Of a DNA stretch of 64,000 bases, positions 46,205 to 63,375 are shown piece by piece; within the stretch, counting starts at the first letter, position 1, and each line of letters opens with the position of its first letter. The notes beneath the pieces are model-generated. The model did no database searches. It saw nothing but the letters and a program-made list of their open reading frames with translations, and was not told the origin of the DNA. This DNA comes from Olivibacter domesticus (lineage in GTDB: Bacteria; Bacteroidota; Bacteroidia; Sphingobacteriales; Sphingobacteriaceae). The stretch is taken from contig NZ_FOAF01000001.1 in NCBI RefSeq assembly GCF_900109575.1, positions 2,017,662-2,081,661 of the forward strand, read 5' to 3'. Both the position numbers and the translations under genes were made by a program.

Positions 46205-46228
46205 CGAATCAAAATATTTGCTAATTAA
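46197..46228. terminator. Hairpin between convergent DUF4349 and permease genes
   Basis: A perfect 9-bp inverted repeat TTAATTAGC/GCTAATTAA (46197-46205 and 46220-46228) overlaps both stop codons. It is A/T-rich without a long T run, so termination is uncertain. Confidence 0.35.
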
Positions 46229-47349
46229 CTTGTTTTCTTATAATTCCAAATGGCCCAGCCATTGAGCAAACCCGCAAAACCAATAAGATATAGAAATTCC
46301 ATTTTAACATCGGAAAATCCGCTACTCTTTAAAATTATCATTCTTACCACTTTAACAAAGTGAGTTACCGGTGTTAAATTAGAAAAAACCCGTGCCCAAT
46401 GAGGCATACTATCAGTTGCCGTAAAAAAGCCGCTCATTAACATAAAAATCATCATAAAAAAGAAGGCTACAAACATAGCTTGCACCTGATTATCGCTATA
46501 GGTAGAAATAAGTAGACCAAGGCCGAGCACAGCGATCAGATAAATAAATGCAAATGCATATAACAACCATAGACTTCCTTTAGGGTATATATCATAAACA
46601 AAACTGCAAACACCTAAGCCCACCGTGAAGATGATCATTCCAATGATCCAAAAAGGGATCAATTTACCAGAAATAAATTGCCATTTTTTTATTGGCGTTA
46701 CATTAATCTGTTCGATGGTACCTATTTCCTTTTCCCTTACTATGTTAAGTGTTGTCATAAAGCCACCAATTAGTGTAAGCAAGAGCACCAATACCGCTGG
46801 AACTATATTGAATTTATATTCCTCTAGCGGATTGAACCAACTTCTTTGTCGAATTTCAATTGCTCCACCTTGGTTCGTATTATTAGCATTTATCTTTTGT
46901 ATATTAAAATCTACTTCATTATTAAAGTCTGCGATCACCATATTCAAATAGCCACTGCCAATCCCGGCTTTTGTCCCATTAATTGCATCTGCATAGACGC
47001 TCAATTGCTGTTTGCCGGCTCTTACTAAGTTGCGTTCAAAATTGGGTGGAATTTCCATCACCACATCAGCCTCTTCTTTTTCTATATGTTTAATGGCCTG
47101 CTGATAATTCGGATCGACACTTATTATGTTAAAATAGCCTGAAGAACTTATTTTGCTGACAAGTTTTTGCGAATAAGAGCTATGATCGTTATCTACAATC
47201 GACAGATTAATACTCTTGATATCAAAATCCATTGCCAAGGGTAAAACTACCAATTGAATCATGGGCATGGCAAACATCATTACTAAGATAGATTTATCGC
47301 GAAAAATCTGGCGAAACTCCTTTTGCAATATAAATCGAAGTACTTTCAT
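46225..47349 (-). CDS. ABC-2 type permease, second of two
   Basis: A 374-residue membrane protein. One helix near the N-terminus (about 20-42) precedes a large extracytoplasmic domain (45-175) and five helices follow, the ABC-2 layout of YbhR/YbhS. EKEIGTIEQINVTPIKKWQF before the second helix is the family's coupling motif. Last gene of a six-gene efflux operon, 25 bp after its sister permease. It most likely forms a heterodimer with that protein for export of a drug or lipid-like compound. Confidence 0.92.
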   Translation of the reverse strand: MKVLRFILQKEFRQIFRDKSILVMMFAMPMIQLVVLPLAMDFDIKSINLSIVDNDHSSYSQKLVSKISSSGYFNIISVDPNYQQAIKHIEKEEADVVMEIPPNFERNLVRAGKQQLSVYADAINGTKAGIGSGYLNMVIADFNNEVDFNIQKINANNTNQGGAIEIRQRSWFNPLEEYKFNIVPAVLVLLLTLIGGFMTTLNIVREKEIGTIEQINVTPIKKWQFISGKLIPFWIIGMIIFTVGLGVCSFVYDIYPKGSLWLLYAFAFIYLIAVLGLGLLISTYSDNQVQAMFVAFFFMMIFMLMSGFFTATDSMPHWARVFSNLTPVTHFVKVVRMIILKSSGFSDVKMEFLYLIGFAGLLNGWAIWNYKKTS

Positions 47350-47374
47350 AAGCTAATTTTTTCACCTAAGGGTT

Positions 47375-48484
47375 TTATAACCTAACTTTAAATTTCTTCA
47401 GTGCGATGCTTAACAATCCTACCGTCATGCCTGTCAACACCAGTGTTTCCTTCCAGACATAACTGAATCCCAATCCTTTTAACATCACCGATTTGACTGC
47501 CAGATAATACCACCTGGAAGGGATAAAATTTGAAATAACCTGAAAAATTTTAGGCATATTCTCCAATGGCATAATAAATCCTGTAAATATTAAGGTAGGT
47601 AACATCATTCCCATTAAAGAAATCAGCAAGGCTGTTTGTTGCGAATTGGTAACATTTGAAATCAGCAGTCCCAAAGAAAGGCAGGTGATAATAAATAATG
47701 TACTTTCCAAGTACAATAACAACAAGCTCCCGCGCACCTCTACGTCGAGCACAAACACAGCTAATAATAAAATTAAAGTAAAATTGGCGAGCGATAATAG
47801 CAAATAGGGTATGGCCTTAGCTATCAATACAAAAACAGGTTTAAAAGGAGAAACCAGTAAGACTTCCATCGTTCCCATTTCTTTCTCCTTCACAACCGAA
47901 ACGGAAGTCAAAGCGGTGCAAATAATCATCAGTATCAAAGCCATCACTCCCGGAATAAAATTCAATGAACCGTTACCTTCCTCATTGAAGAGCATACGAA
48001 CTTCGGGCTGGATGCTTAATAGCGCTGGCACCTGGTCCGAAAGGGCTTCCTGCTGTTGAAAATCAACAATAATGGCAGTAAGATAGTTCGTTATTGTTTT
48101 TGATATATTCGGATCCGATCCATCTGTGATTACTTGAATTTGGGATTTCCCGCTGTGAAGTAAATCACTGCTAAAATTTACAGGAATTATTAATGCCCCC
48201 TTCACCTCTCCTCGCTTAAATTCCTGCTCGATCTCTTGATAGTTCAGATTCACTTGCTCTACGAGTAGATATTCAGAGGTCATAATTTTATTAATGAGTT
48301 TTTGGCTTTTAACATCTTTCGAATAATCAGCAATAACTAGGTGAATATTTTTAACTTCACTTGACAAAGCAAAGCCAAATAAAATGATCTGCACGATGGG
48401 AAGACCAAACATAATCAACAATGTTCGGCGATCACGAAAAACGTGATAAAACTCCTTTTTAATAAATACGAGCAATTGTTTCAT
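47375..48484 (-). CDS. ABC-2 type permease, first of two
   Basis: A 369-residue ABC-2 permease. Start 48484 (MKQLLVFIKKEFYHVFRDRR) is the usual beginning; eight more codons are open upstream. Topology is one N-terminal helix, an external domain, then five helices; VKEKEMGTMEVLLVSPFKPV is the cytoplasmic coupling segment. It is homologous to the next gene and to E. coli YbhS/YbhR. It works with the two upstream ATPase genes. Confidence 0.92.
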   Translation of the reverse strand: MKQLLVFIKKEFYHVFRDRRTLLIMFGLPIVQIILFGFALSSEVKNIHLVIADYSKDVKSQKLINKIMTSEYLLVEQVNLNYQEIEQEFKRGEVKGALIIPVNFSSDLLHSGKSQIQVITDGSDPNISKTITNYLTAIIVDFQQQEALSDQVPALLSIQPEVRMLFNEEGNGSLNFIPGVMALILMIICTALTSVSVVKEKEMGTMEVLLVSPFKPVFVLIAKAIPYLLLSLANFTLILLLAVFVLDVEVRGSLLLLYLESTLFIITCLSLGLLISNVTNSQQTALLISLMGMMLPTLIFTGFIMPLENMPKIFQVISNFIPSRWYYLAVKSVMLKGLGFSYVWKETLVLTGMTVGLLSIALKKFKVRL

Positions 48485-48558
48485 TTCGTAGTTTTTAGAT
48501 ATTGGCACAATTACACCAAAAAATCGGTTAATCAGCTAATGAATGATTATCAGTCGCA

Positions 48559-49305
48559 CTAGTTATCACTCCGCTTGGCTCCTCTCGCCAGCAAATAAAA
48601 AACTTCATCCATCGTGGTAACTTGATGTTTTTCTTTTAGATTTCTCGGTGAGTCAAGTGCCTCTACTTTTCCATCCACCATAACGGAGATACGATTACAA
48701 TACTCCGCTTCATCCATATAATGTGTGGTCACAAAGATGGTTATCCCACTCGCTGCAGCTTCATAAATCATATCCCAGAACTGCCTGCGTGTCACAGGAT
48801 CTACTCCTCCAGTTGGCTCATCCAAGAATACAATTTTTGGCTGGTGGAATATGGCAACAGAAAAGGCCAATTTTTGTTTCCATCCGAGAGGAAGCTCTCC
48901 TACCATTTTCTTTGCTTCTTTCTGTAGGCCTAATGTATCTATCAATTTTTCGGTTCTCCTTTTTATCTCCTTCCGTTCCAATCCATAAACACCGCCAAAA
49001 AATTCGATATTCTCTAAAATCGTCAGGTTTTCATACAGCGAGAACTTTTGACTCATATAACCAATATTCTTTTTAATCTGCTCCTGTTGTTTATACACGT
49101 CGTAGCCTGCTACGGTAGCTTCACCGCTTGTAGGAAAAGATAGACCGCACAAAATGCGCATGGCAGTAGTTTTTCCTGCGCCATTGGCGCCTAAAAAACC
49201 GAAGATTTCCCCCTTCGTAATATCAAAAGATATTTCGTTTACGGCGGTAAAATCGCCAAACCTTTTGGTTAAATTCTTGCAAATAATAACTTTCTCTTGA
49301 TCCAT
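48559..49305 (-). CDS. ABC transporter ATPase, second of two
   Basis: A 248-residue ATPase with Walker A GANGAGKTT, signature LPLGWKQKLAF (a diverged LSGGQ with LPLGW), and Walker B IVFLDEPTGGVDPV. Start 49305 is an ATG; the frame continues to a TTG at 49326 adjoining the upstream stop. E. coli YbhF carries two ATPase domains in one chain; here they are split into two adjacent genes. The unusual signature motif in this subunit suggests the two NBDs are not equivalent. Confidence 0.9.
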   Translation of the reverse strand: MDQEKVIICKNLTKRFGDFTAVNEISFDITKGEIFGFLGANGAGKTTAMRILCGLSFPTSGEATVAGYDVYKQQEQIKKNIGYMSQKFSLYENLTILENIEFFGGVYGLERKEIKRRTEKLIDTLGLQKEAKKMVGELPLGWKQKLAFSVAIFHQPKIVFLDEPTGGVDPVTRRQFWDMIYEAAASGITIFVTTHYMDEAEYCNRISVMVDGKVEALDSPRNLKEKHQVTTMDEVFYLLARGAKRSDN

Positions 49306-49326
49306 TCTAAGTCTTAGTTCAACCAA

Positions 49327-50259
49327 TTACACCTTTGCTTCCTTTTCTCCCATTAAACGAATAAAGCTGTCTTCAATCGTCGCTTTAATTTCCTTCACTT
49401 GAATTTCAACATGTCCCTTTTTCTCCGCAATTTCATTTAGCTTAGAGAGCCCATCATGCACTTTATTATGGAGGGTAATATGTAAATATTCTCCGAAGGC
49501 ATAACTACTTTCAATAGCTTCGTCCGAGCGGTAGTCGAGCAATAAGCGATAAATTTCCCTAGATCTTGCAGCATACAATTTAGTCGGGTATGCCTTCATA
49601 ATATTTTCAGGAGCATCAACTGTCATAATTTTACCATCTTGTATGAGCGCAATTCGTTCGCAAAGTGTTGCTTCATCCATGTAAGGGGTAGACACTAGTA
49701 TCGTAATTCCCTGACGTTTGAGTGTCTTCAACATTTCCCAAAACTCTTTACGAGAAACCACATCTACTCCCGTGGTAGGCTCATCTAATAATAACACTTT
49801 TGGTTTATGAATCAGGGCACAACAAAGCGCCAATTTTTGCTTCATTCCTCCAGATAACTTCCCTGCCCGACGATTGTTAAAAGGTTTGATCTGATCATAA
49901 ATATCTTTTATAAGCTCATAATTTTCTTCTATAGTTGTACCAAATACCGTTGCAAAAAAATTCAAGTTTTCCAAAACGGTTAAGTCTTGGTATAAAGAAA
50001 ATTTGCCGGGCATATATCCAACACTGGCCCTTATCTCTTTATAATCTTTTACAACATCGAAGCCAGCAACGCTTGCCTGTCCCTTATCTGCTAGCAAAAC
50101 CGTTGTTAAAATTCGAAAAATAGAGGTCTTGCCTGCTCCATCAGGTCCAATTAATCCAAATAATTCCCCTTCTTTAACAGTAAATGAAACGTCGTCTACC
50201 GCTTTTACGCTTCCGTTGTTATACGTTTTAACAATATTTTGAAGTGTTACCGTTTCCAT
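49327..50259 (-). CDS. ABC transporter ATPase, first of two
   Basis: A 310-residue ATPase: Walker A GPDGAGKTSIF, signature KLSGGMKQKLALCCAL, Walker B VLLLDEPTTGVDVV. About 80 residues beyond the ATPase core (LLDYRSDEAIESSYAFGEYL) form a C-terminal regulatory extension typical of such exporters. It has a canonical signature, unlike its partner. Nineteen bases separate it from the membrane-fusion gene. Confidence 0.93.
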   Translation of the reverse strand: METVTLQNIVKTYNNGSVKAVDDVSFTVKEGELFGLIGPDGAGKTSIFRILTTVLLADKGQASVAGFDVVKDYKEIRASVGYMPGKFSLYQDLTVLENLNFFATVFGTTIEENYELIKDIYDQIKPFNNRRAGKLSGGMKQKLALCCALIHKPKVLLLDEPTTGVDVVSRKEFWEMLKTLKRQGITILVSTPYMDEATLCERIALIQDGKIMTVDAPENIMKAYPTKLYAARSREIYRLLLDYRSDEAIESSYAFGEYLHITLHNKVHDGLSKLNEIAEKKGHVEIQVKEIKATIEDSFIRLMGEKEAKV

Positions 50260-50278
50260 GGGCGACTAAAATTTTCTA

Positions 50279-51193
50279 TCATTTATTATTGTTTTCACCT
50301 TTCAATACAATCTGGCCATACATCCCAATCTTCAAGTAACCATCATTCTTGACACGTACTTTTATAGCATATACTAAATTGGCTCGCTCATCTTTCGTTT
50401 GGATAGTTTTTGGCGTAAATTCAGCTTTATCACTTATCCACTCTATAACACCTGCGTATTCTTTAAAAGTATCTTTACCTTGATCGATTTGTACGCGTAC
50501 AGGCTGACCTACTTTTATATTCGAGAATTTTTCTCCATTGATATAAGCCCTTAAAATAATACTAGATATATCTGCGATACGGTAAAGAGGTTTACCTACT
50601 GTTGCCATTTCATTCTCTTCAATATATTTAGTCAGAACCGTACCTTTTACGGGATTTATTATTTTGCTTTTCGCGAGCTGATCATTCAGCTGTTCAATTT
50701 GCGCATATAAGGGGTTAGTCTCCTCTTGAAGACTAGTAGAAGTAATGCCTAATGAAGATTGTTGGGCCGTTATCCGCTTTTTTATGATATTCATTTCTGC
50801 CGTAGCGTCGTCCAGCTGCTTAGGTGTAGCTGCATCGGCCTTCACAAGATTCACAAGTCTTTCCTGCTCCCTTTTAGCATGTCTAAGTTCTTCCTGTAAG
50901 GCAGCCATTTCTGCGGCGACATTTGGCCGCTTGCTAAGTACAGCCATTGCCTGTGCTTCAAGCTGTTTTTTCTTAAGATACAGCTGGATAGTATCAATGT
51001 AACCTACATCTTGCCCTGTATTAAGCGCTTGGCCTTCTTCCAAAGAAAGCTTTTTTATAACACCATTTGCTTCTGCTGAAACAATCGTTTCTACTGCTTC
51101 AAAGGAGCCCGAAGCATCATAAGGAAGCTTATCATCGGTACAGGATGTATAAAAGAAGGTGAATAAACTAAATAATAACACAGTCGTTCTCAT
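50279..51193 (-). CDS. HlyD/YbhG-type membrane-fusion lipoprotein
   Basis: A 304-residue periplasmic adaptor, probably lipidated (FFYTSC, C18). Order: short lipoyl half, a long coiled-coil hairpin (about 75-150, AMAALQEELRHAKREQERLV), then the second lipoyl half and beta-barrel (KIINPVKGTVLTKYIEENEM). It links the inner-membrane ABC complex to the TolC-like channel encoded upstream. Length and order match YbhG. Confidence 0.92.
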   Translation of the reverse strand: MRTTVLLFSLFTFFYTSCTDDKLPYDASGSFEAVETIVSAEANGVIKKLSLEEGQALNTGQDVGYIDTIQLYLKKKQLEAQAMAVLSKRPNVAAEMAALQEELRHAKREQERLVNLVKADAATPKQLDDATAEMNIIKKRITAQQSSLGITSTSLQEETNPLYAQIEQLNDQLAKSKIINPVKGTVLTKYIEENEMATVGKPLYRIADISSIILRAYINGEKFSNIKVGQPVRVQIDQGKDTFKEYAGVIEWISDKAEFTPKTIQTKDERANLVYAIKVRVKNDGYLKIGMYGQIVLKGENNNK

Positions 51194-51221
51194 TTTTTTT
51201 AAAATTTAAGATGCTAATACA

Positions 51222-52484
51222 TTAATTGCCTTGCGTATACTTATTGTTGTATTGAGATAATAAAAGTTGAATTTCATGCACAATTTTATTCTGCCTTGCT
51301 TGATCTTCCGCATTAACTTCCCGCAAATAATCACTTGTTGTAATGACCCCATTTTCCAATTGCGCGATGGATGTATTTTTCACCTTTTCACGAAGTGCGA
51401 TAATTTCATCATCCGACTTTAACAAATCGCTATACTTATCGATCACAGCTTGCTCTTGCTTCGTTTGATAATTTGTATTAAATAAAAATGTTTCTTTATC
51501 GACCATTATTGCTATTCGGTCATTTTCGAGAAGGGCCTTCTCTTTCTTCTGTGTATATAAACCTGCTATATTCCAACGAAGACGCACACCACCTATATAA
51601 TAAGTTTCGAAGCTAGGTTTTAGAATATTCAGGGCCGGCCTACCATAACCACCTTGGAAAAAGAAATCTAATTTGGGTCTGTTTCTAGCACTTATCGCAT
51701 CCTCTTGTACATCAAGGTTATGTAGCTGATAATTAAACAATGCTAATTCAGGCCTGTTAATGGCAGAAGTAGATAAAATTGGCGTGGGTCTGATGAAGAC
51801 AATCGCCGTATCTAAGGGTTGATGCATAAATAAACCTAACATTTCGACATAAGCCTTGCGCGTTGCTTTCATATCAATTGCCTGTTGTAGAGCGTTTAAA
51901 TGCTCAGCTTTCAATACATCGACGTTGCTTTTAAGCGCCGTTCCATTGTTAACAGCTCCTTGCATTTTATTTATTCCCAGGTTGATATCCTTTATCAACA
52001 ATGAATTTTGACGCAATTGTTCTTGAATCAATAGAATCCCAAAGAACAATTGATTTACGCGTTCCTTCAACTGATACAATTCTATCTCCAAACGTTGCTC
52101 TTCAATAGCCGAGACTGTCCGATGAGTCTCTTTTTGCTGTTTAATGTCGCCTCCGTCATAGATAGATTGATTTATCTCGCCGTAGATTTTATATTGGTCC
52201 TTCTTTAACTGTGGTACTTGAATACCAGGTACTGAAATGGGAATTTCCGTAACCGCAGATTGATAAGTGGCTTGCCCATTTATACTTAATTGAGGCAGAT
52301 AACCTTTTTCTGCATTTTCAATAGAATACGCTTTACTTTTATTGATCAAAGCACGTTTTTTTATCAAAGGGTAATTAGCTTTTGCTTGCTCATAACATTC
52401 ATCCAATGTAAGGTCTTGCTTATCCTGAGCAACGGCAGTTATTGCTTGCATTAAAAAAAAGCATGTAGCTAGCACCAATTTCAT
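51222..52484 (-). CDS. TolC-family outer-membrane efflux channel
   Basis: A 420-residue OEP-family protein. Start 52484 gives a good signal peptide (MKLVLATCFFLMQAITAVAQ); the frame is open to 52601 but the additional 39 residues are basic and Cys-containing and do not resemble a signal. DLTLDECYEQAKANYPLIKK, VNQLFFGILLIQEQLRQNS and repeated coiled-coil segments fit TolC. First structural gene of the efflux operon. Two identical operator palindromes lie upstream. Confidence 0.9.
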   Translation of the reverse strand: MKLVLATCFFLMQAITAVAQDKQDLTLDECYEQAKANYPLIKKRALINKSKAYSIENAEKGYLPQLSINGQATYQSAVTEIPISVPGIQVPQLKKDQYKIYGEINQSIYDGGDIKQQKETHRTVSAIEEQRLEIELYQLKERVNQLFFGILLIQEQLRQNSLLIKDINLGINKMQGAVNNGTALKSNVDVLKAEHLNALQQAIDMKATRKAYVEMLGLFMHQPLDTAIVFIRPTPILSTSAINRPELALFNYQLHNLDVQEDAISARNRPKLDFFFQGGYGRPALNILKPSFETYYIGGVRLRWNIAGLYTQKKEKALLENDRIAIMVDKETFLFNTNYQTKQEQAVIDKYSDLLKSDDEIIALREKVKNTSIAQLENGVITTSDYLREVNAEDQARQNKIVHEIQLLLSQYNNKYTQGN

Positions 52485-52607
52485 AGCAGGTGCATTACTT
52501 TTCTTTTTTACCGACTGGTTTATTTGCTTTGGGCTTACTCCTCTTAAGAAGCAATCTGATTTCCACCAATTTAAACACTTCAAGAAACATATGTTATTCA
52601 TATTTTT

Positions 52608-53635: not shown

Positions 53636-54235
53636 ATGGAAGCTTTTAAAACAGCAAACGATTTTTACAATGCGCAACAACAATGGCATGAAGAATTAAA
53701 GGTTTTACGAAAACTAATTTTAAGCGCAGGCTTAACAGAAGAGATAAAATGGGGTGGCCCCATTTACACGCATAATGGCAAAAATATTGTCGGTTTGGCT
53801 GGTTTCAAATCTTATTTTGGCATCTGGTTTCATCAGGGCGTTTTCTTAGAAGACAAGTATAAGTTACTGATTAATGCCCAAGAAGGAACAACAAAGGCGT
53901 TAAGGCAAATGCGTTTTACCTCTATAAAAAAAGTTGATTTGCCCATTATCTTAAGTTATGTAAAAGAGGCTATTCTTAATCAGGAAAAAGGTTTAGAAAT
54001 GAAGGCCGATAGGAATAAACCTATTCTTATCCCAAATGAACTTGCACAGCTTTTTAAAGAAAACAAAATACTGCAACAGCGTTTCTCTCAGTTTAAAAAG
54101 ACTCAACAACGAGAATTTGCTGAATATATCAGCACAGCCAAACAAGATAAAACCAAGCAGGAAAGGCTGAAAAAGATTATTCCGATGATTGAACAAGGTC
54201 TGGGCTTAAACGATAAATACCGTTTTAATCAATAA
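53636..54235 (+). CDS. YdeI/DUF1801-like protein
   Basis: A 199-residue cytoplasmic protein with an N-terminal DUF1801 domain (about 10-115; EEIKWGGPIYTHNGKNIVGL and SYFGIWFHQGVFLED) and a C-terminal YdeI-type helical region (KKTQQREFAEYISTAKQDKT, QERLKKIIPMIEQG). Members are widespread, with no firmly known function. It probably shares an operon with the YciI-like gene 13 bp downstream. Confidence 0.82.
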   Translation: MEAFKTANDFYNAQQQWHEELKVLRKLILSAGLTEEIKWGGPIYTHNGKNIVGLAGFKSYFGIWFHQGVFLEDKYKLLINAQEGTTKALRQMRFTSIKKVDLPIILSYVKEAILNQEKGLEMKADRNKPILIPNELAQLFKENKILQQRFSQFKKTQQREFAEYISTAKQDKTKQERLKKIIPMIEQGLGLNDKYRFNQ

Positions 54236-54986: not shown

Positions 54987-55493
54987 TTAATAAAGCGCCT
55001 TCTCCCGTAAAAGCTGGATCTCCTCTTCACTAATTTCTCCCATCATATACTGTTTCACATTATTAATTTTCATTTCGTCTAAAATAGCTACTAAGTCACT
55101 GTAATCAGATCTATTACTGGGATGTATTATAACCATTAAACCTTTTAAGTTATCGTCTTCTTGCGTAGCGATTTTTTTCATTTTGTCTTCTATTTCCAAT
55201 CTTATCCCCTGTTTTCCGTGTGTCGTAATTTGTGGCATTTCTATGGGTTGGTCCAGCCTTCCCCAATACCATACAATTTTATTATCTGCCCCTAATAACA
55301 CGGTCATCGTACGGCTGTCGGAAAAGGGTGTTAATTCAGTTGGATCGGAGACATCTGGCATCGTCACATCCATTGCTTGCGGCTGGTTTAAACTGGTAGT
55401 TAGCATAAAAAAGGTAATCAATAAAAAAGCTAAATCTACCATGGGGGTAAGATCAACCCTAGGTTGCAATCTACCTGTAACTAATTCTGCCAT
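54987..55493 (-). CDS. ExbD/TolR-family energy-transducing protein
   Basis: A 168-residue protein with a single N-terminal helix. RVDLTPMVDLAFLLITFFML places D20 where the essential membrane aspartate of ExbD/TolR lies (D25 in E. coli ExbD). The periplasmic domain has KGLMVIIHPSNRSDYSDLVA and ILDEMKINNVKQYMM. ExbB and TonB partners are not adjacent, so it is an orphan exbD that must work with proteins encoded elsewhere. Confidence 0.9.
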   Translation of the reverse strand: MAELVTGRLQPRVDLTPMVDLAFLLITFFMLTTSLNQPQAMDVTMPDVSDPTELTPFSDSRTMTVLLGADNKIVWYWGRLDQPIEMPQITTHGKQGIRLEIEDKMKKIATQEDDNLKGLMVIIHPSNRSDYSDLVAILDEMKINNVKQYMMGEISEEEIQLLREKALY

Positions 55494-59306: not shown

Positions 59307-59663
59307 TTCCTGACTGTTTTTCTTAACGAATAAATATAAATATGTTTCATCAATATAACAAACGTTCTTATCAAATGGAATTATCAACCCAACGAAAAGT
59401 AATATACAAAAAAACTGAACAAAAAGACCAAGCCCCACCACTCTTTCCCTTTTTCGCAATCAAAACAGGCTTAAACATGCATTTTTGCAGCAAAAACACC
59501 TTTTTTATACTCATTTAACTAGTTGAACATAACCTATCAACGGCTGTAGATAACAAAGTCTGCGCCTATTAATTATATATATTTGTTTAAGTGTTTGGCC
59601 AACACAGGCGCATCCTGAAAAGCCTTAAAAGAGTAAGGACCACAAATAAAAAATCTCTTTGTT
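59307..59663. other. 357-bp intergenic region before the peptide cassette
   Basis: AT-rich. It contains the -7 box of the peptide gene (59578-59585) and, in the leader, a small CCTTA/TAAGG stem near 59622-59637. No gene was recognised. Confidence 0.45.
59578..59585 (+). promoter_or_regulatory. -7 box upstream of the peptide gene
   Basis: TATATTTG matches TAnnTTTG exactly, giving a leader of about 70 nt. No TTTG lies 19-20 nt upstream, so an activator may be needed. Confidence 0.45.
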
Positions 59664-59858
59664 ATGAAAAAATTGGATTTAAACAAATTAGGGGTAGAAG
59701 AAATGAACGCTACTGAATTAAGAACTGTAGAAGGTGGCGGTCCTGTAGGTGATTTATTAAATGTAATCGTTGGTGGTGTTGGTACTATCGCCAATGATAC
59801 CTTCGGATTCTTAAACAAAACTTTAGTAAATATCTTCAAAACACTTGCTTCTTTATAA
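59664..59858 (+). CDS. Double-glycine-leader secreted peptide (bacteriocin- or signal-like)
   Basis: A 64-residue precursor. The leader (1-25) begins MKKLDLNKLGVEEMNATELR and ends in VEGG. Hydrophobic residues V22, L19, M14 and V11 stand at -4, -7, -12 and -15 from G25, the pattern read by C39 peptidases; a shift by one glycine breaks it. The mature product would be 39 residues (starting GPVGDLLNVIVGG), Cys-free, near-neutral and amphipathic, with a GGVG core and a C-terminal helix (FLNKTLVNIFKTLASL). Exporter genes follow at once. It may be an unmodified class II-type bacteriocin or a signalling peptide; no immunity or modifying gene is seen. Confidence 0.8.
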   Translation: MKKLDLNKLGVEEMNATELRTVEGGGPVGDLLNVIVGGVGTIANDTFGFLNKTLVNIFKTLASL

Positions 59859-59883
59859 GCATTGACCTGTTTGAACAAAAAAT

Positions 59884-59925
59884 TAACAGTTATCCCCAAA
59901 AAGGATAACTGTTATTTAGTTTTTG
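59884..59925 (+). terminator. Hairpin between peptide and export genes (attenuator or terminator)
   Basis: A perfect 12-bp stem (59884-59895 with 59903-59914), a 7-nt loop, then TTTAGTTTTTG. The interrupted T run suggests partial termination, which would make peptide mRNA exceed exporter mRNA. No separate strong promoter was found before the next gene. Confidence 0.6.
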
Positions 59926-59987
59926 AGACGCTATAAAACACAACCAGTTAATGTATCGCTATAGTACATCATTTAACTGAATATATT

Positions 59988-61160
59988 ATGTCATTACCGG
60001 CTTATTCCATAGATACGATTACTAACACGAACATCGTTTATTTATCCCGTGTCAAAAGATCAACCCGGGTTATATATATCGGTATATTATTACTTCTCAT
60101 ATCTGCTCTCATAGCACTCCCTTTAATACGAACCAACATCAGTGTGAAAGGTTCTGGCCTTTTACAATCATCCATTGAAAAAACTGAATTAACGATCCCT
60201 ATAAACGGCAGATTAATATATTTCAATGTAAAGGATAATCAGAAAACCAACCTCGGGGATACGCTACTTATTATTGACGGAGCTTCCTCCAATCAGCAAA
60301 ACGTATTAGTTAAAGGTAGGCAACAAGAAATAACTTCATTTATTAGAGATTTAAACATATTAATAAATAAAGCTAGCTCGGAGGATTTCAACCCTCCCAC
60401 CCTTCATGCAGGACAATATTATGCGATTTGGCAACAATATACACAGGAATTAGAAAATACAAAGATTGCACGCGATCAAGCAGAAAACACGTTCAATAGA
60501 TACAGTAAACTATACCGAAAAAAAATGGTATCCTCTGCTGAGTACGACAAGTATGACTTCGAGTATAAGCAAGCATCAGCAAATTATGCCATGATTTCAA
60601 AACGTTATAAGGCCCAATGGCAAACAGAAATTAACCAACTGCAAAACGAATACCGTCAGTTATCGAGTCAACAAATTGAAATCAACGAACAAAAGAAACA
60701 ATATATTGTAACTGCACCTATAGATGGTTCCGTGCAGAATTTAGCTGGTATACAAAAGGGGGCCTATGTTTTTGCAAATCAAAAATTCGCAGAATTATCG
60801 CCAGACACTACCCTTTTAGCTTTCTGCTATATTAAACCATCAGATATTGGTCTCATAAAAAAAGAACAGGAGGTTCGTTTTCAGGTCGACGCCTTCAACT
60901 ATAATCAATGGGGTCTGTTAACAGGGAAAGTTATAGATATATCGGACGACATTGTGATGTTAAATGACAACCAGCCTGTTTTTAAAGTGAGATGCTTATT
61001 GAACAGTGATCATCTAACGTTAAAAAATGGCTATAAGGGCTATCTAAAGAAAGGGATGAACTTCACCGCTCGGTTCTCGGTAACGGAACGGAGTCTATTC
61101 CAATTGCTTTATGACAAAGTGGATAACTGGCTAAATCCAAACATAAAGACAACCTCTTAA
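59988..61160 (+). CDS. HlyD-family membrane-fusion protein of the peptide exporter
   Basis: A 390-residue type I secretion adaptor. One membrane helix (about 28-47), then a lipoyl half (ISVKGSGLLQ), a coiled-coil region (about 130-240, ENTFNRYSKLYRKKMVSSAE, EYRQLSSQQIEINEQKKQYI), the second lipoyl half (VTAPIDGSVQNLAGIQKGAY) and a beta-barrel. It bridges the peptidase-ABC exporter to an outer-membrane channel that is not in the cassette. It lies 49 bp before the ABC gene and is presumably cotranscribed. Confidence 0.93.
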   Translation: MSLPAYSIDTITNTNIVYLSRVKRSTRVIYIGILLLLISALIALPLIRTNISVKGSGLLQSSIEKTELTIPINGRLIYFNVKDNQKTNLGDTLLIIDGASSNQQNVLVKGRQQEITSFIRDLNILINKASSEDFNPPTLHAGQYYAIWQQYTQELENTKIARDQAENTFNRYSKLYRKKMVSSAEYDKYDFEYKQASANYAMISKRYKAQWQTEINQLQNEYRQLSSQQIEINEQKKQYIVTAPIDGSVQNLAGIQKGAYVFANQKFAELSPDTTLLAFCYIKPSDIGLIKKEQEVRFQVDAFNYNQWGLLTGKVIDISDDIVMLNDNQPVFKVRCLLNSDHLTLKNGYKGYLKKGMNFTARFSVTERSLFQLLYDKVDNWLNPNIKTTS

Positions 61161-61209
61161 TTTTTATTGCTAAAATAAGGATAGTAGGCGATTAACAAAT
61201 GACAACAGC

Positions 61210-63375
61210 ATGGGCAAGAAAGTTAAACAAAGAGATATAACTGATTGTGGAGCAGCCTGCATAGCTTCCGTTGCTGCCCACTACAAACTAGCTATTTCTG
61301 TAGCTAATATAAGGCAACTTGCGAGCACCGATAAAAAAGGGACCAACATACTTGGCCTGTTGGAAGCCGCCGAAAAATTAGGATTTGAGGCAAAAGGTGT
61401 AAGAGGATCTTTTGAAAGTTTATTTAAAATACCTAAACCCGCCATTGCACATATAGTAGTTGAAGGAGTTTTACAACATTACGTAGTAATCTACAAGGTA
61501 AGCAAAAGATTTGTCGAGGTGATGGATCCCTTGGATGGTATGACTCATAAAAAATCACATGAAGATTTCAAAAAGATCTGGACAGGTGCGCTCGTTCTGT
61601 TAATTCCCTCCGAAGCCTTCCAAAAAGGAAAAAAGACGGCCTCCGTGCGAAGTCGATTTTGGAATTTAATGAAACCTCAAACAAGCACACTTATTCAGGT
61701 ATTATTTGGGGCCATTATATACACTATACTTGGACTCTCCACCGCTGTTTTTGTACAAAAGATTGTAGATTTTGTGTTGGTTGATGGCAATATTAATTTG
61801 CTAAACCTTATGAGTATTATGATGATCGTAATATTAGGTTTTCAGCTATTCATAGGAGCAACAAAAACAGTCTTTACGCTAAAAATGGGTCAGATTATTG
61901 ATTCCCAACTTATCTTAGGCTACTACAAACATCTTTTAACACTCCCTCAAAAATTTTTCGATACCATGCGTGTCGGAGAGGTTATTTCCAGAATAAATGA
62001 TGCTGTAAAAATAAGAGTGTTTTTAAATGATGTTAGTGTAAATTTCCTCGTAAACATCTTCATTGTTACCTTTTCATTTCTGATGATGTTCACATATTAT
62101 TGGAAGTTAGGTCTACTTATGCTTACCGTCATTCCACTGTATCTTTTAGTATATTTCATTGCCAATAAGCTCAACAGAAAAGTGCAGCGAACACTTATGG
62201 AAGATTCCGCAGAGCTGGAATCTCAATTAGTAGAAAGCCTGAATGCGGTTCGTACCATCAAACAATTCGGCGCTGAATCTTATGCGAATGAAAAAACCGA
62301 AACTAGATTTGTCAAATTATTAAAAACAGGTTATCAATCAAACCTAAACACACTTTTTGCTAGTACTTCATCTGAATTCATATCCCGCTTAATCACCATT
62401 GCTCTCCTATGGGTAGGGGCTACCTATGTATTAAAAAATCAAATCACACCTGGAGAACTTTTATCGTTTTATACACTTATCAGCTATTTTACGACACCTG
62501 TCACTGCTTTAATAAACATGAATAAGACGGTGCAAGATGCTGCTATTGCCACTGATCGATTATTTGAAATTTTAGATCTTGAATGTGAAGAGGATAATAG
62601 CGATATCGAACTGACTAAAGACAAAATAGGTGATATTCAATTTAAAAATATATCTTTTAGATATGGAAGCCGAGCGAATGTTTTTGATGATTTGTCTCTC
62701 AATATACAAAAAGCAAAATTTACGGCAATCGTCGGCGAAAGTGGTTCAGGGAAATCAACACTCATTTCCATTTTGCAACATATTTATCCCGTACAAGGGG
62801 GAACGATAACTATTGGAAAATATGATCTAAAGCATATTAAAAATGCTTCTCTACGGCAAATCGTTTCTGTTGTACCACAACATATTGACTTGTTTTCAGG
62901 GAATGTTGCATCAAATATTGCGCTTGGCGATTATACTCCCGATATGCAAAGAATTATTGATATTACTACTCAACTCGGAATAATTGACTTCATTGAATCT
63001 TTACCTCAAGGATTCTACACAAACATCGGCGAAAATGGTTTATCCCTATCTGGTGGTCAACGACAACGAATTGCGATTGCACGAGCGCTGTATCGTAACC
63101 CTGAAATATTAATTTTAGATGAAGCTACCTCCTCTTTGGACTCCACTTCAGAAAAATTTGTTTTAAATACGATCGATCATTTAAAAAGAGATAACAAAAC
63201 AATTATTGTCATAGCGCATAGGTTAAGTACCTTATATAATGCCGATAAAATTATTGTATTAGATAAAGGAAAAGTAATTGAACAAGGAACCCATCAAGAA
63301 TTGCTTTTGACGGATAATTCTATGTATTCAAATTTATGGAAGCTGCAATCGCAACAATTAATTCTTAAGAATTGA
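61210..63375 (+). CDS. C39-peptidase-containing ABC exporter (PCAT)
   Basis: A 721-residue processing exporter. The C39 domain (1-140) has oxyanion Q7, nucleophile C13 in TDCGAAC, H90 in LQHYVVIYK and D106 in MDPLDG, so it should be active. Six membrane helices (about 155-440) follow, then the ATPase: Walker A GESGSGKST (about 508-516), LSGGQRQR (about 613) and LILDEATSSLD (about 634). It cleaves double-glycine leaders and exports the product with the HlyD protein. The substrate is almost certainly the small peptide 1.4 kb upstream. Confidence 0.96.
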   Translation: MGKKVKQRDITDCGAACIASVAAHYKLAISVANIRQLASTDKKGTNILGLLEAAEKLGFEAKGVRGSFESLFKIPKPAIAHIVVEGVLQHYVVIYKVSKRFVEVMDPLDGMTHKKSHEDFKKIWTGALVLLIPSEAFQKGKKTASVRSRFWNLMKPQTSTLIQVLFGAIIYTILGLSTAVFVQKIVDFVLVDGNINLLNLMSIMMIVILGFQLFIGATKTVFTLKMGQIIDSQLILGYYKHLLTLPQKFFDTMRVGEVISRINDAVKIRVFLNDVSVNFLVNIFIVTFSFLMMFTYYWKLGLLMLTVIPLYLLVYFIANKLNRKVQRTLMEDSAELESQLVESLNAVRTIKQFGAESYANEKTETRFVKLLKTGYQSNLNTLFASTSSEFISRLITIALLWVGATYVLKNQITPGELLSFYTLISYFTTPVTALINMNKTVQDAAIATDRLFEILDLECEEDNSDIELTKDKIGDIQFKNISFRYGSRANVFDDLSLNIQKAKFTAIVGESGSGKSTLISILQHIYPVQGGTITIGKYDLKHIKNASLRQIVSVVPQHIDLFSGNVASNIALGDYTPDMQRIIDITTQLGIIDFIESLPQGFYTNIGENGLSLSGGQRQRIAIARALYRNPEILILDEATSSLDSTSEKFVLNTIDHLKRDNKTIIVIAHRLSTLYNADKIIVLDKGKVIEQGTHQELLLTDNSMYSNLWKLQSQQLILKN

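Follow-up and report, generated by a model that had tools for sequence, protein, structure and literature searches.

A probable RNA-led cassette for the export of an unmodified double-glycine peptide in Olivibacter domesticus

The 64,000-nucleotide (nt) stretch of the Olivibacter domesticus genome analysed here, hereafter called the window, carries a row of three genes on its forward strand that is preceded by a small RNA of the DUF805b family. The first gene (59664–59858) encodes a 64-amino-acid (aa) precursor peptide, which comprises a 25-aa leader of the double-glycine (GG) type, MKKLDLNKLGVEEMNATELRTVEGG (59664 to 59738), and a 39-aa mature peptide, GPVGDLLNVIVGGVGTIANDTFGFLNKTLVNIFKTLASL (59739 to 59858, stop codon included). 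It is followed by a gene for a 390-aa HlyD-type membrane-fusion adaptor (59988 to 61160) and by a gene for a 721-aa peptidase-containing ABC exporter (PCAT; 61210 to 63375) whose C39 peptidase domain spans nucleotides 61222–61611. An acyltransferase_3 gene lies 3′ of the exporter gene on the opposite strand. A first-pass annotation of this DNA had described the same three genes in the same places, and this part of its account is borne out by our analysis, whereas the DUF805b RNA, a terminator-like hairpin between the precursor and adaptor genes, and a paralog of the precursor had been overlooked.

The exporter scores 530.6 bits against TIGR01193 (cut-off 523.85) and 116.9 bits against the C39 family PF03412 (cut-off 22), and the Pfam families ABC_membrane and ABC_tran are likewise matched above their cut-offs. 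The top chain in the PDB is 4ry2, an “ABC-type bacteriocin transporter” (E value of 1.2e-164), and the catalytic residues Q7, C13, H90 and D106 are all in place, as had been annotated. The adaptor matches PF13437 (39.1 bits, cut-off 22.2) and PF16576 (32.1 bits, cut-off 30) and falls below the cut-offs of TIGR01843 and TIGR01000. In the precursor, the two glycines occupy residues 24 and 25, so that the mature part begins with GPVGDLLN and, again as previously noted, is free of cysteine; its computed mass is 3989.6. A match to the Bacteriocin_IIc family (PF10439) covers residues 11–40 at 21.5 bits, which is below the cut-off of 27.1, although this family was matched at an E value of at most 0.01 by 16 of 30 precursors submitted (best 1.6e-4). 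Sub-cut-off matches of the leader to TIGR01847, to NF038153 (13.4 bits, cut-off 22) and to TIGR04149, a family of GG peptides targeted by radical SAM enzymes (14.6 bits, cut-off 25), also were found. An AlphaFold2 model of the precursor, built from three sequences, places a helix at residues 27–63 with low confidence (mean pLDDT 62.2, pTM 0.29).

Several comparisons indicate that the precursor is a real gene and not a chance open reading frame (ORF). A search with the single sequence found homologs at an E value of at most 0.01 in 39 of 301 genomes of the family and in two of five genomes of the genus, O. domesticus itself being counted in both. A profile hidden Markov model grown from the window peptide then recognised 87 precursor-like ORFs across 44 loci of 16–19 kb each, comprising 40 matched places with long flanks together with L005, L009, L010 and L011, the last being the window's own. 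In Olivibacter jilunii, two precursors that are 83 and 61% identical to that of the window are followed by HlyD and PCAT genes, and the mature parts of the window and O. jilunii peptides differ with a nonsynonymous divergence (dN) of 0.165 and a synonymous divergence (dS) of 1.141. A closest group of 23 precursors was delimited with a C-terminal pattern. Across its 253 pairs, leaders are on average 77% and mature parts 57% identical, and the 194 usable pairs have a median dN/dS of 0.29 in the leader and 0.39 in the mature part. We regard purifying selection as firm only in close pairs, because several distant pairs have a mature dN near or above dS, where the sequence is short and saturated.

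Precursor homologs do lie beside exporters, which is the point on which the first-pass annotation had staked its reading. Homologs of both the adaptor and the exporter are present in 36 of the 44 loci, the adaptor alone is found in one more (L087, making 37 with an adaptor), and neither is found in seven (L009, L074, L080, L081, L083, L091 and L098). These loci were selected by precursor similarity and some share a genome, and so they give no estimate of how frequent the system is. In three of them (L065, L075 and L089) the PCAT frame is split into two ORFs, by assembly error or decay. Thirty-one core loci have closer exporters (HlyD at least 45% and PCAT at least 60% identical). Among ORFs of at least 50 aa within 6.5 kb, only the precursor, HlyD and PCAT are common to all 31, and the next neighbour family, a lone ExbD, occurs in 14. 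One or two precursors are listed in 26 of the 31, and arrays of precursors occur in four loci: L072 and L073 have six ORFs apiece, L087 and L089 seven apiece.

The neighbourhood also bears on whether the peptide is modified. The earlier statement that no tailoring gene stands nearby agrees with a Pfam scan that covered 19 genes on either side of the cassette, a selection of the ORFs in that span: none of these, nor an AraC-type gene, is a known enzyme for tailoring ribosomally synthesized and post-translationally modified peptides (RiPPs). Two genes upstream deserve mention. At 53636–54235, 5.4 kb upstream of the cassette, is a gene for a protein with DUF1801 and OmdA (“bacteriocin-protection”) domains, which is absent from the listed shared neighbour families. 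At 54987–55493 is a lone ExbD gene. ExbD is found near the cassette in 14 of the 44 loci. Thirteen of these come from a single genus other than Olivibacter, in which the ExbD homolog immediately precedes the precursor gene, and a homolog lies close to the precursor in O. jilunii too. We set ExbD aside as a cassette partner in view of this concentration in one genus and its differing orientation in Olivibacter.

The RNA lies at 59605 to 59639 on the forward strand and ends 24 nt 5′ of the precursor start codon. It is a member of DUF805b (RF02914) by its Rfam score of 37.8 bits (gathering threshold 35.6; E value of 9.7e-9 for the 1.5 kb searched). Its first predicted helix, S1, pairs AGGC with GCCU (59606–59609 with 59622–59625), and a second helix, S2, would pair UCCU with AGGA (59613–59616 with 59636–59639) and thereby create a pseudoknot. 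The two conserved sequences of the motif adjoin S2: its 5′ strand directly precedes the GAAA of a conserved GAAAA (59617–59621), and its 3′ strand directly follows a conserved GAGUA (59631–59635).

To locate such elements in the other loci, an anchored pattern was applied to 81 precursors with an assigned start and to 368 other large ORFs of the same loci as a control. The element precedes 53 of the 81 precursors, at a median of 23 nt and in 51 cases at 19–27 nt from the start codon, and at least three S2 positions are paired in 49. The same pattern precedes only six of the 368 control ORFs, three of them with S2 pairing. In the closest group, 22 of 23 precursors have the element 22–27 nt from the start codon. 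Where precursors form arrays, four of six in L072 and five of six in L073 have an element of their own, as expected if the element acts on each ORF separately. The anchored pattern replaced a structure-led pseudoknot descriptor that required GAAA and that had matched 33 of the 81 precursors, two of the 368 other ORFs and five of 1620 shuffled sequences; one of its matches, at position 14472 of L099 and 83 nt from the ATG, is clearly false.

The simplest reading of the sequence variation is that DUF805b forms an H-type pseudoknot. Among 48 distinct precursor elements, S2 has on average 3.52 of four positions paired, compared with 3.05 when the 3′ strands are re-dealt among elements (reached in 0 of 2000 trials). 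For a larger pair count, we joined 41 of these 48 with 44 of 47 elements from loci that had been returned by searches for DUF805b alone. The 47 were taken on from 51 such loci, leaving out L043, L117 and L119, whose elements stand before genes of this precursor family, and L110, which did not resolve. L110, L113, L117 and L119 did not enter the extraction, two of them (L117 and L119) being already in the set as L005, and L124, L135 and L138 were discarded as mis-extracted. The seven precursor elements dropped as long, misplaced or misread are three of L079 (two with 4/4 and one with 3/4 S2 pairs), L077 (3/4), and L087 at 12326, L089 at 14617 and L099 at 8001 (1–2/4). Over the resulting 85 rows, 81.6% of cells are paired, compared with 63.6% (standard deviation (sd) 1.1) in shuffles; 147 cells have changed on both sides, compared with 54.0 (sd 5.1); and the covariation score reaches 0.513, compared with 0.175. 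None of 500 shuffles reached any of these values, a result that kinship among the sequences inflates.

Both helices contribute to this signal. Cells are paired at 79.3% in S1 and 84.4% in S2, and double-sided changes affect all five S1 pairs and three of four S2 pairs, the fourth being invariant. The S1 counts are biased toward structure, since the Rfam model contains S1, whereas S2 is not part of the nested model shown. In some rows, L064, L067 and L075 among them, the alignment displaces S1, which is then scored as unpaired. Two results make the pseudoknot the simplest account. Sliding the partner strand by one to three columns lowers pairing to 17.7–55.6%, and the S2 pair at columns 16 and 43 occurs in four types (CG 33, GC 24, UA 12 and AU 9). 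Other measures weigh against it. The number of doubly changed pairs (8 versus 7.2 in shuffles, reached by 127 of 500) and that of further pair types (26 versus 24.9, reached by 173 of 500) are not significant, and the outermost pair does not form in 52 rows for S1 and in 47 for S2. In addition, the window leader is no more stable than shuffled sequences (z-score −0.06) by nested folding, which is blind to pseudoknots; the nested fold it yields conflicts with the pseudoknot and was not counted as support.

Upstream of the RNA, at 59578 to 59585, the sequence TATATTTG resembles the −7 promoter box of Bacteroidota, for which the consensus is TAnnTTTG, and may serve as the promoter. A hairpin, P0 (GUGUU-UGGCC-AACAC), follows at 59591 to 59605. 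Among 29 distinct precursor upstream regions that bear the GGCC of this hairpin, 20 have TAnnTTYG 9–12 nt before it, compared with 4.7% in shuffles, and the mean stem over the 29 sites is 3.66 base pairs (bp), compared with 2.43 in shuffles (0 of 5000). The transcript therefore probably begins at the P0 hairpin, given the regular spacing of the box, although a palindromic DNA operator could also account for the hairpin signal. Between the precursor and HlyD genes, at 59884 to 59914, is a terminator-like hairpin of 12 bp with a loop of 7 nt and a T-rich tail, which is terminator-like on the other strand as well. The search that identified it found two such hairpins, compared with 0.5 expected in shuffles, and its RNA fold has a z-score of −6.23, with none of 200 shuffles equally stable.

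We consider it rather probable that these parts make up an RNA-led, self-contained secretion cassette for an unmodified GG peptide. The sequences compared support the order of the genes, an intact C39-ABC exporter and its adaptor, a conserved precursor and the pseudoknot. From these a course of events can be proposed. Transcription would begin at the P0 hairpin, and the pseudoknot, 19–27 nt 5′ of the start codon, would set the rate at which ribosomes initiate on the precursor. Control at this step is suggested because the pseudoknot would lie at the rear edge of the initiating ribosome, because in two arrays there is mostly one element per ORF, and because Bacteroidota make little use of Shine–Dalgarno pairing. 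The terminator-like hairpin would hold peptide output above exporter output. The PCAT would then cut after Gly25, and the 39-mer would leave through the PCAT, HlyD and a TolC-like channel encoded elsewhere. Once outside the cell, the amphipathic peptide may act, most likely as a bacteriocin-like weapon against related Bacteroidota.

Not all observations favour this proposal. No immunity gene is common to the core loci among ORFs of 50 aa or more, which upholds, for ORFs of this size, the first-pass statement that none is recognisable. The cassette itself holds no outer-membrane channel gene, 28 of the 81 precursors lack the element by the anchored pattern, and many genes led by DUF805b are not GG peptides, as described below. 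The window precursor, moreover, scores under the PF10439 cut-off, the counted net charge of its mature 39-mer is 0, where typical class II bacteriocins are cationic, and the mature median dN/dS lacks the excess expected of a fast-diversifying weapon. With regard to the channel, an efflux operon at 46225–52601 of the window encodes an OEP/TolC-like and an HlyD-like protein by Pfam and, by inspection, two ABC ATPases and two ABC-2 permeases; it could be a source of the channel, and no link between it and the cassette was seen.

The earlier proposal of a class II-like antimicrobial or a signal is thus upheld insofar as an unmodified GG peptide and a dedicated C39 exporter are supported, whereas sequence does not settle the choice between the two roles. 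A weapon directed at related Bacteroidota, favoured by the arrays of different paralogs and the resemblance to PF10439, has in our judgment an even chance of being correct. The 39-mer might instead be a conserved pheromone or a self-sensing cue, for which an immunity gene would be unnecessary. This is the less likely role, although the neutral charge, the conservation in close relatives such as O. jilunii, the lack of a shared immunity gene and the one or two precursors of most core loci all fit it. A signal is harder to reconcile with the six- or seven-ORF arrays of different precursors in four loci, or with a length of 39 aa that exceeds that of most peptide pheromones. Furthermore, no receptor kinase or regulator is present in all core loci; a LytS-type-like kinase, identified by inspection, is found in 11 of the 31 at a median distance of 3.9 kb. 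Some other role, for example that of a surface-active factor, is less likely still.

Two further explanations concern the nature of the peptide and of the RNA. That the peptide is a RiPP substrate of a modifying enzyme encoded elsewhere would accord with the faint likeness of its leader to TIGR04149 and NF038153, but both scores are below cut-off, the mature part lacks cysteine, no radical SAM domain or known tailoring enzyme is found among the 19 scanned neighbours, and no such enzyme is common to the 31 core loci; we regard this as improbable. We give even less credence to the notion that the conserved upstream block is a DNA regulatory site, an operator with a promoter, and not an RNA. A palindrome with a GGCC core and a box of the −7 type do lie within or beside the block. 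S1 and S2, however, are interleaved and not palindromic, compensatory changes occur in both helices, and in the arrays each ORF has an element at most positions. Genes that lack the GGCC hairpin keep the distance to the start codon as well: among the elements found by DUF805b searches, the next ORF begins 19–29 nt away in 37 of the 46 cases in which one is listed.

DUF805b extends well beyond this cassette. The searches for DUF805b alone count the own genome, and loci were returned for part of the matches. All of the 14 control genomes match at an E value of at most 10 and two at most 0.01, with none above the cut-off, and thus lone weak matches prove nothing. By comparison, five of five genomes of the genus match at 0.01 or better (three of five above the cut-off), 29 of 61 genomes of the family at 1e-7 or better (26 of 61 above the cut-off) and 23 of 118 genomes of the phylum at 1e-8 or better, with 0 of 14 controls at each of the latter two thresholds. 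Within the 47 elements, a strict pattern identifies a GG-leader peptide behind nine, to which inspection adds three (L131, L132 and L134); the background of this pattern is 28 of 792 ATG-initiated ORFs of 40–129 aa in 50 loci, with these genes and nested starts included. DUF805b is therefore not specific to GG peptides, which account for about one in four of the listed genes.

The remaining genes behind DUF805b are varied. By inspection, they include genes for lipoproteins, for short proteins with a signal peptide and for peptides that terminate in KCIPYEG(L/F); the last, seen in one genus (L109, L112, L113, L114 and L115), look like another conserved peptide family. Pfam was applied to ten DUF805b-led genes, and seven matched, as a terpene synthase, a subtilase, an M57 metallopeptidase, a trypsin-like protein, a patatin, an O-methyltransferase and PKD proteins, whereas those of L104, L107 and L146 had no Pfam match. 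Other families of the phylum show similar variety; one element, near position 1114 of L151 from another family of the class, stands 19 nt before a gene for what by inspection is a rhodopsin-like membrane protein.

The own genome has five DUF805b places at an E value of at most 0.01: this precursor, its paralog, a three-gene row of short signal-peptide proteins (by inspection), a terpene synthase gene (PF19086, 4.6e-29) and an SRPBCC-type gene (by inspection). The paralog is a 53%-identical orphan precursor (L009, near 8073); the 17 kb examined at this locus contain no exporter. Its element (L043, approximately 1497–1537; C10:1278863-1279263) stands about 24 nt 5′ of the ATG that opens an ORF of 14 codons; beyond that ORF lies the intact paralog precursor, as though an earlier precursor had been lost. 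A second GG-peptide system is encoded on contig C4 of the same genome (L010, 6236–10510), with an HlyD (38%), a PCAT (62%), a small HTH-like protein (by inspection) and two Gly/Ala-rich GG peptides 3′ of the exporter.

The export cassette is of a known kind. It shares with microcin V and with class II GG export the GG leader, the C39-ABC exporter, the membrane-fusion protein and an unmodified peptide, and differs from microcin V in that no immunity gene was found, TolC is not in the cassette and DUF805b is the leader; the comparison is one of layout, with no sequence kinship claimed. Colicin V export follows the pattern of a PCAT, an adaptor and a TolC-like channel (PMC10352776). The bacteroidetocins (Coyne et al. 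2019, PMC6671954) have leaders of 15–16 aa and at least two cysteines, are encoded beside a PCAT gene with a transmembrane protein and mostly a thiol oxidoreductase gene, and inhibit their own producers, which are without an obvious immunity protein. The system described here has in common with them the Bacteroidota host, the GG leader, the PCAT and the lack of a detected immunity protein, but it is set apart by its 25-aa leader, the absence of cysteine, its HlyD-type adaptor and the absence of a further gene common to the core loci. Because bacteroidetocin producers likewise are without an obvious immunity gene and inhibit themselves, the missing gene here is not decisive.

The name of DUF805b (RF02914, clan CL00115) presumably points to another gene context; here the motif leads GG-peptide genes. 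DUF805 and DUF805b were reportedly first described by Weinberg et al. in 2017. We found no earlier report of a DUF805b pseudoknot as the usual leader of GG-peptide genes, and since that original description was not seen, we claim no priority for the pseudoknot or its context. A partial literature search found no function for DUF805b, and the portion of PMC9723704 available does not mention the motif. Compared by description, the preQ1-I-type H-type pseudoknot riboswitches are alike in their length of approximately 35 nt, two helices, A-rich third loop and proximity to the start codon, whereas the DUF805b core differs in its GAAA and GAGUA sequences and has no known ligand.

We tentatively suggest, at somewhat less than even likelihood, that DUF805b works as a small pseudoknot switch which, placed at a nearly fixed 20–25 nt from the start codon, controls the translation of mostly exported products throughout the phylum, the cassette being one output among them. 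If so, these outputs would comprise GG-leader and other short peptides, lipoproteins, proteases and secondary-metabolite enzymes, and one intracellular cue would time the release of the peptide. The cassette also brings to light, in this family of Bacteroidota, a widespread family of GG peptides whose member in the window is below the cut-off of the bacteriocin model. By tying DUF805b, an orphan cis-regulatory motif, to a compact set of secreted peptide and exporter, it makes what this RNA senses or does directly testable.

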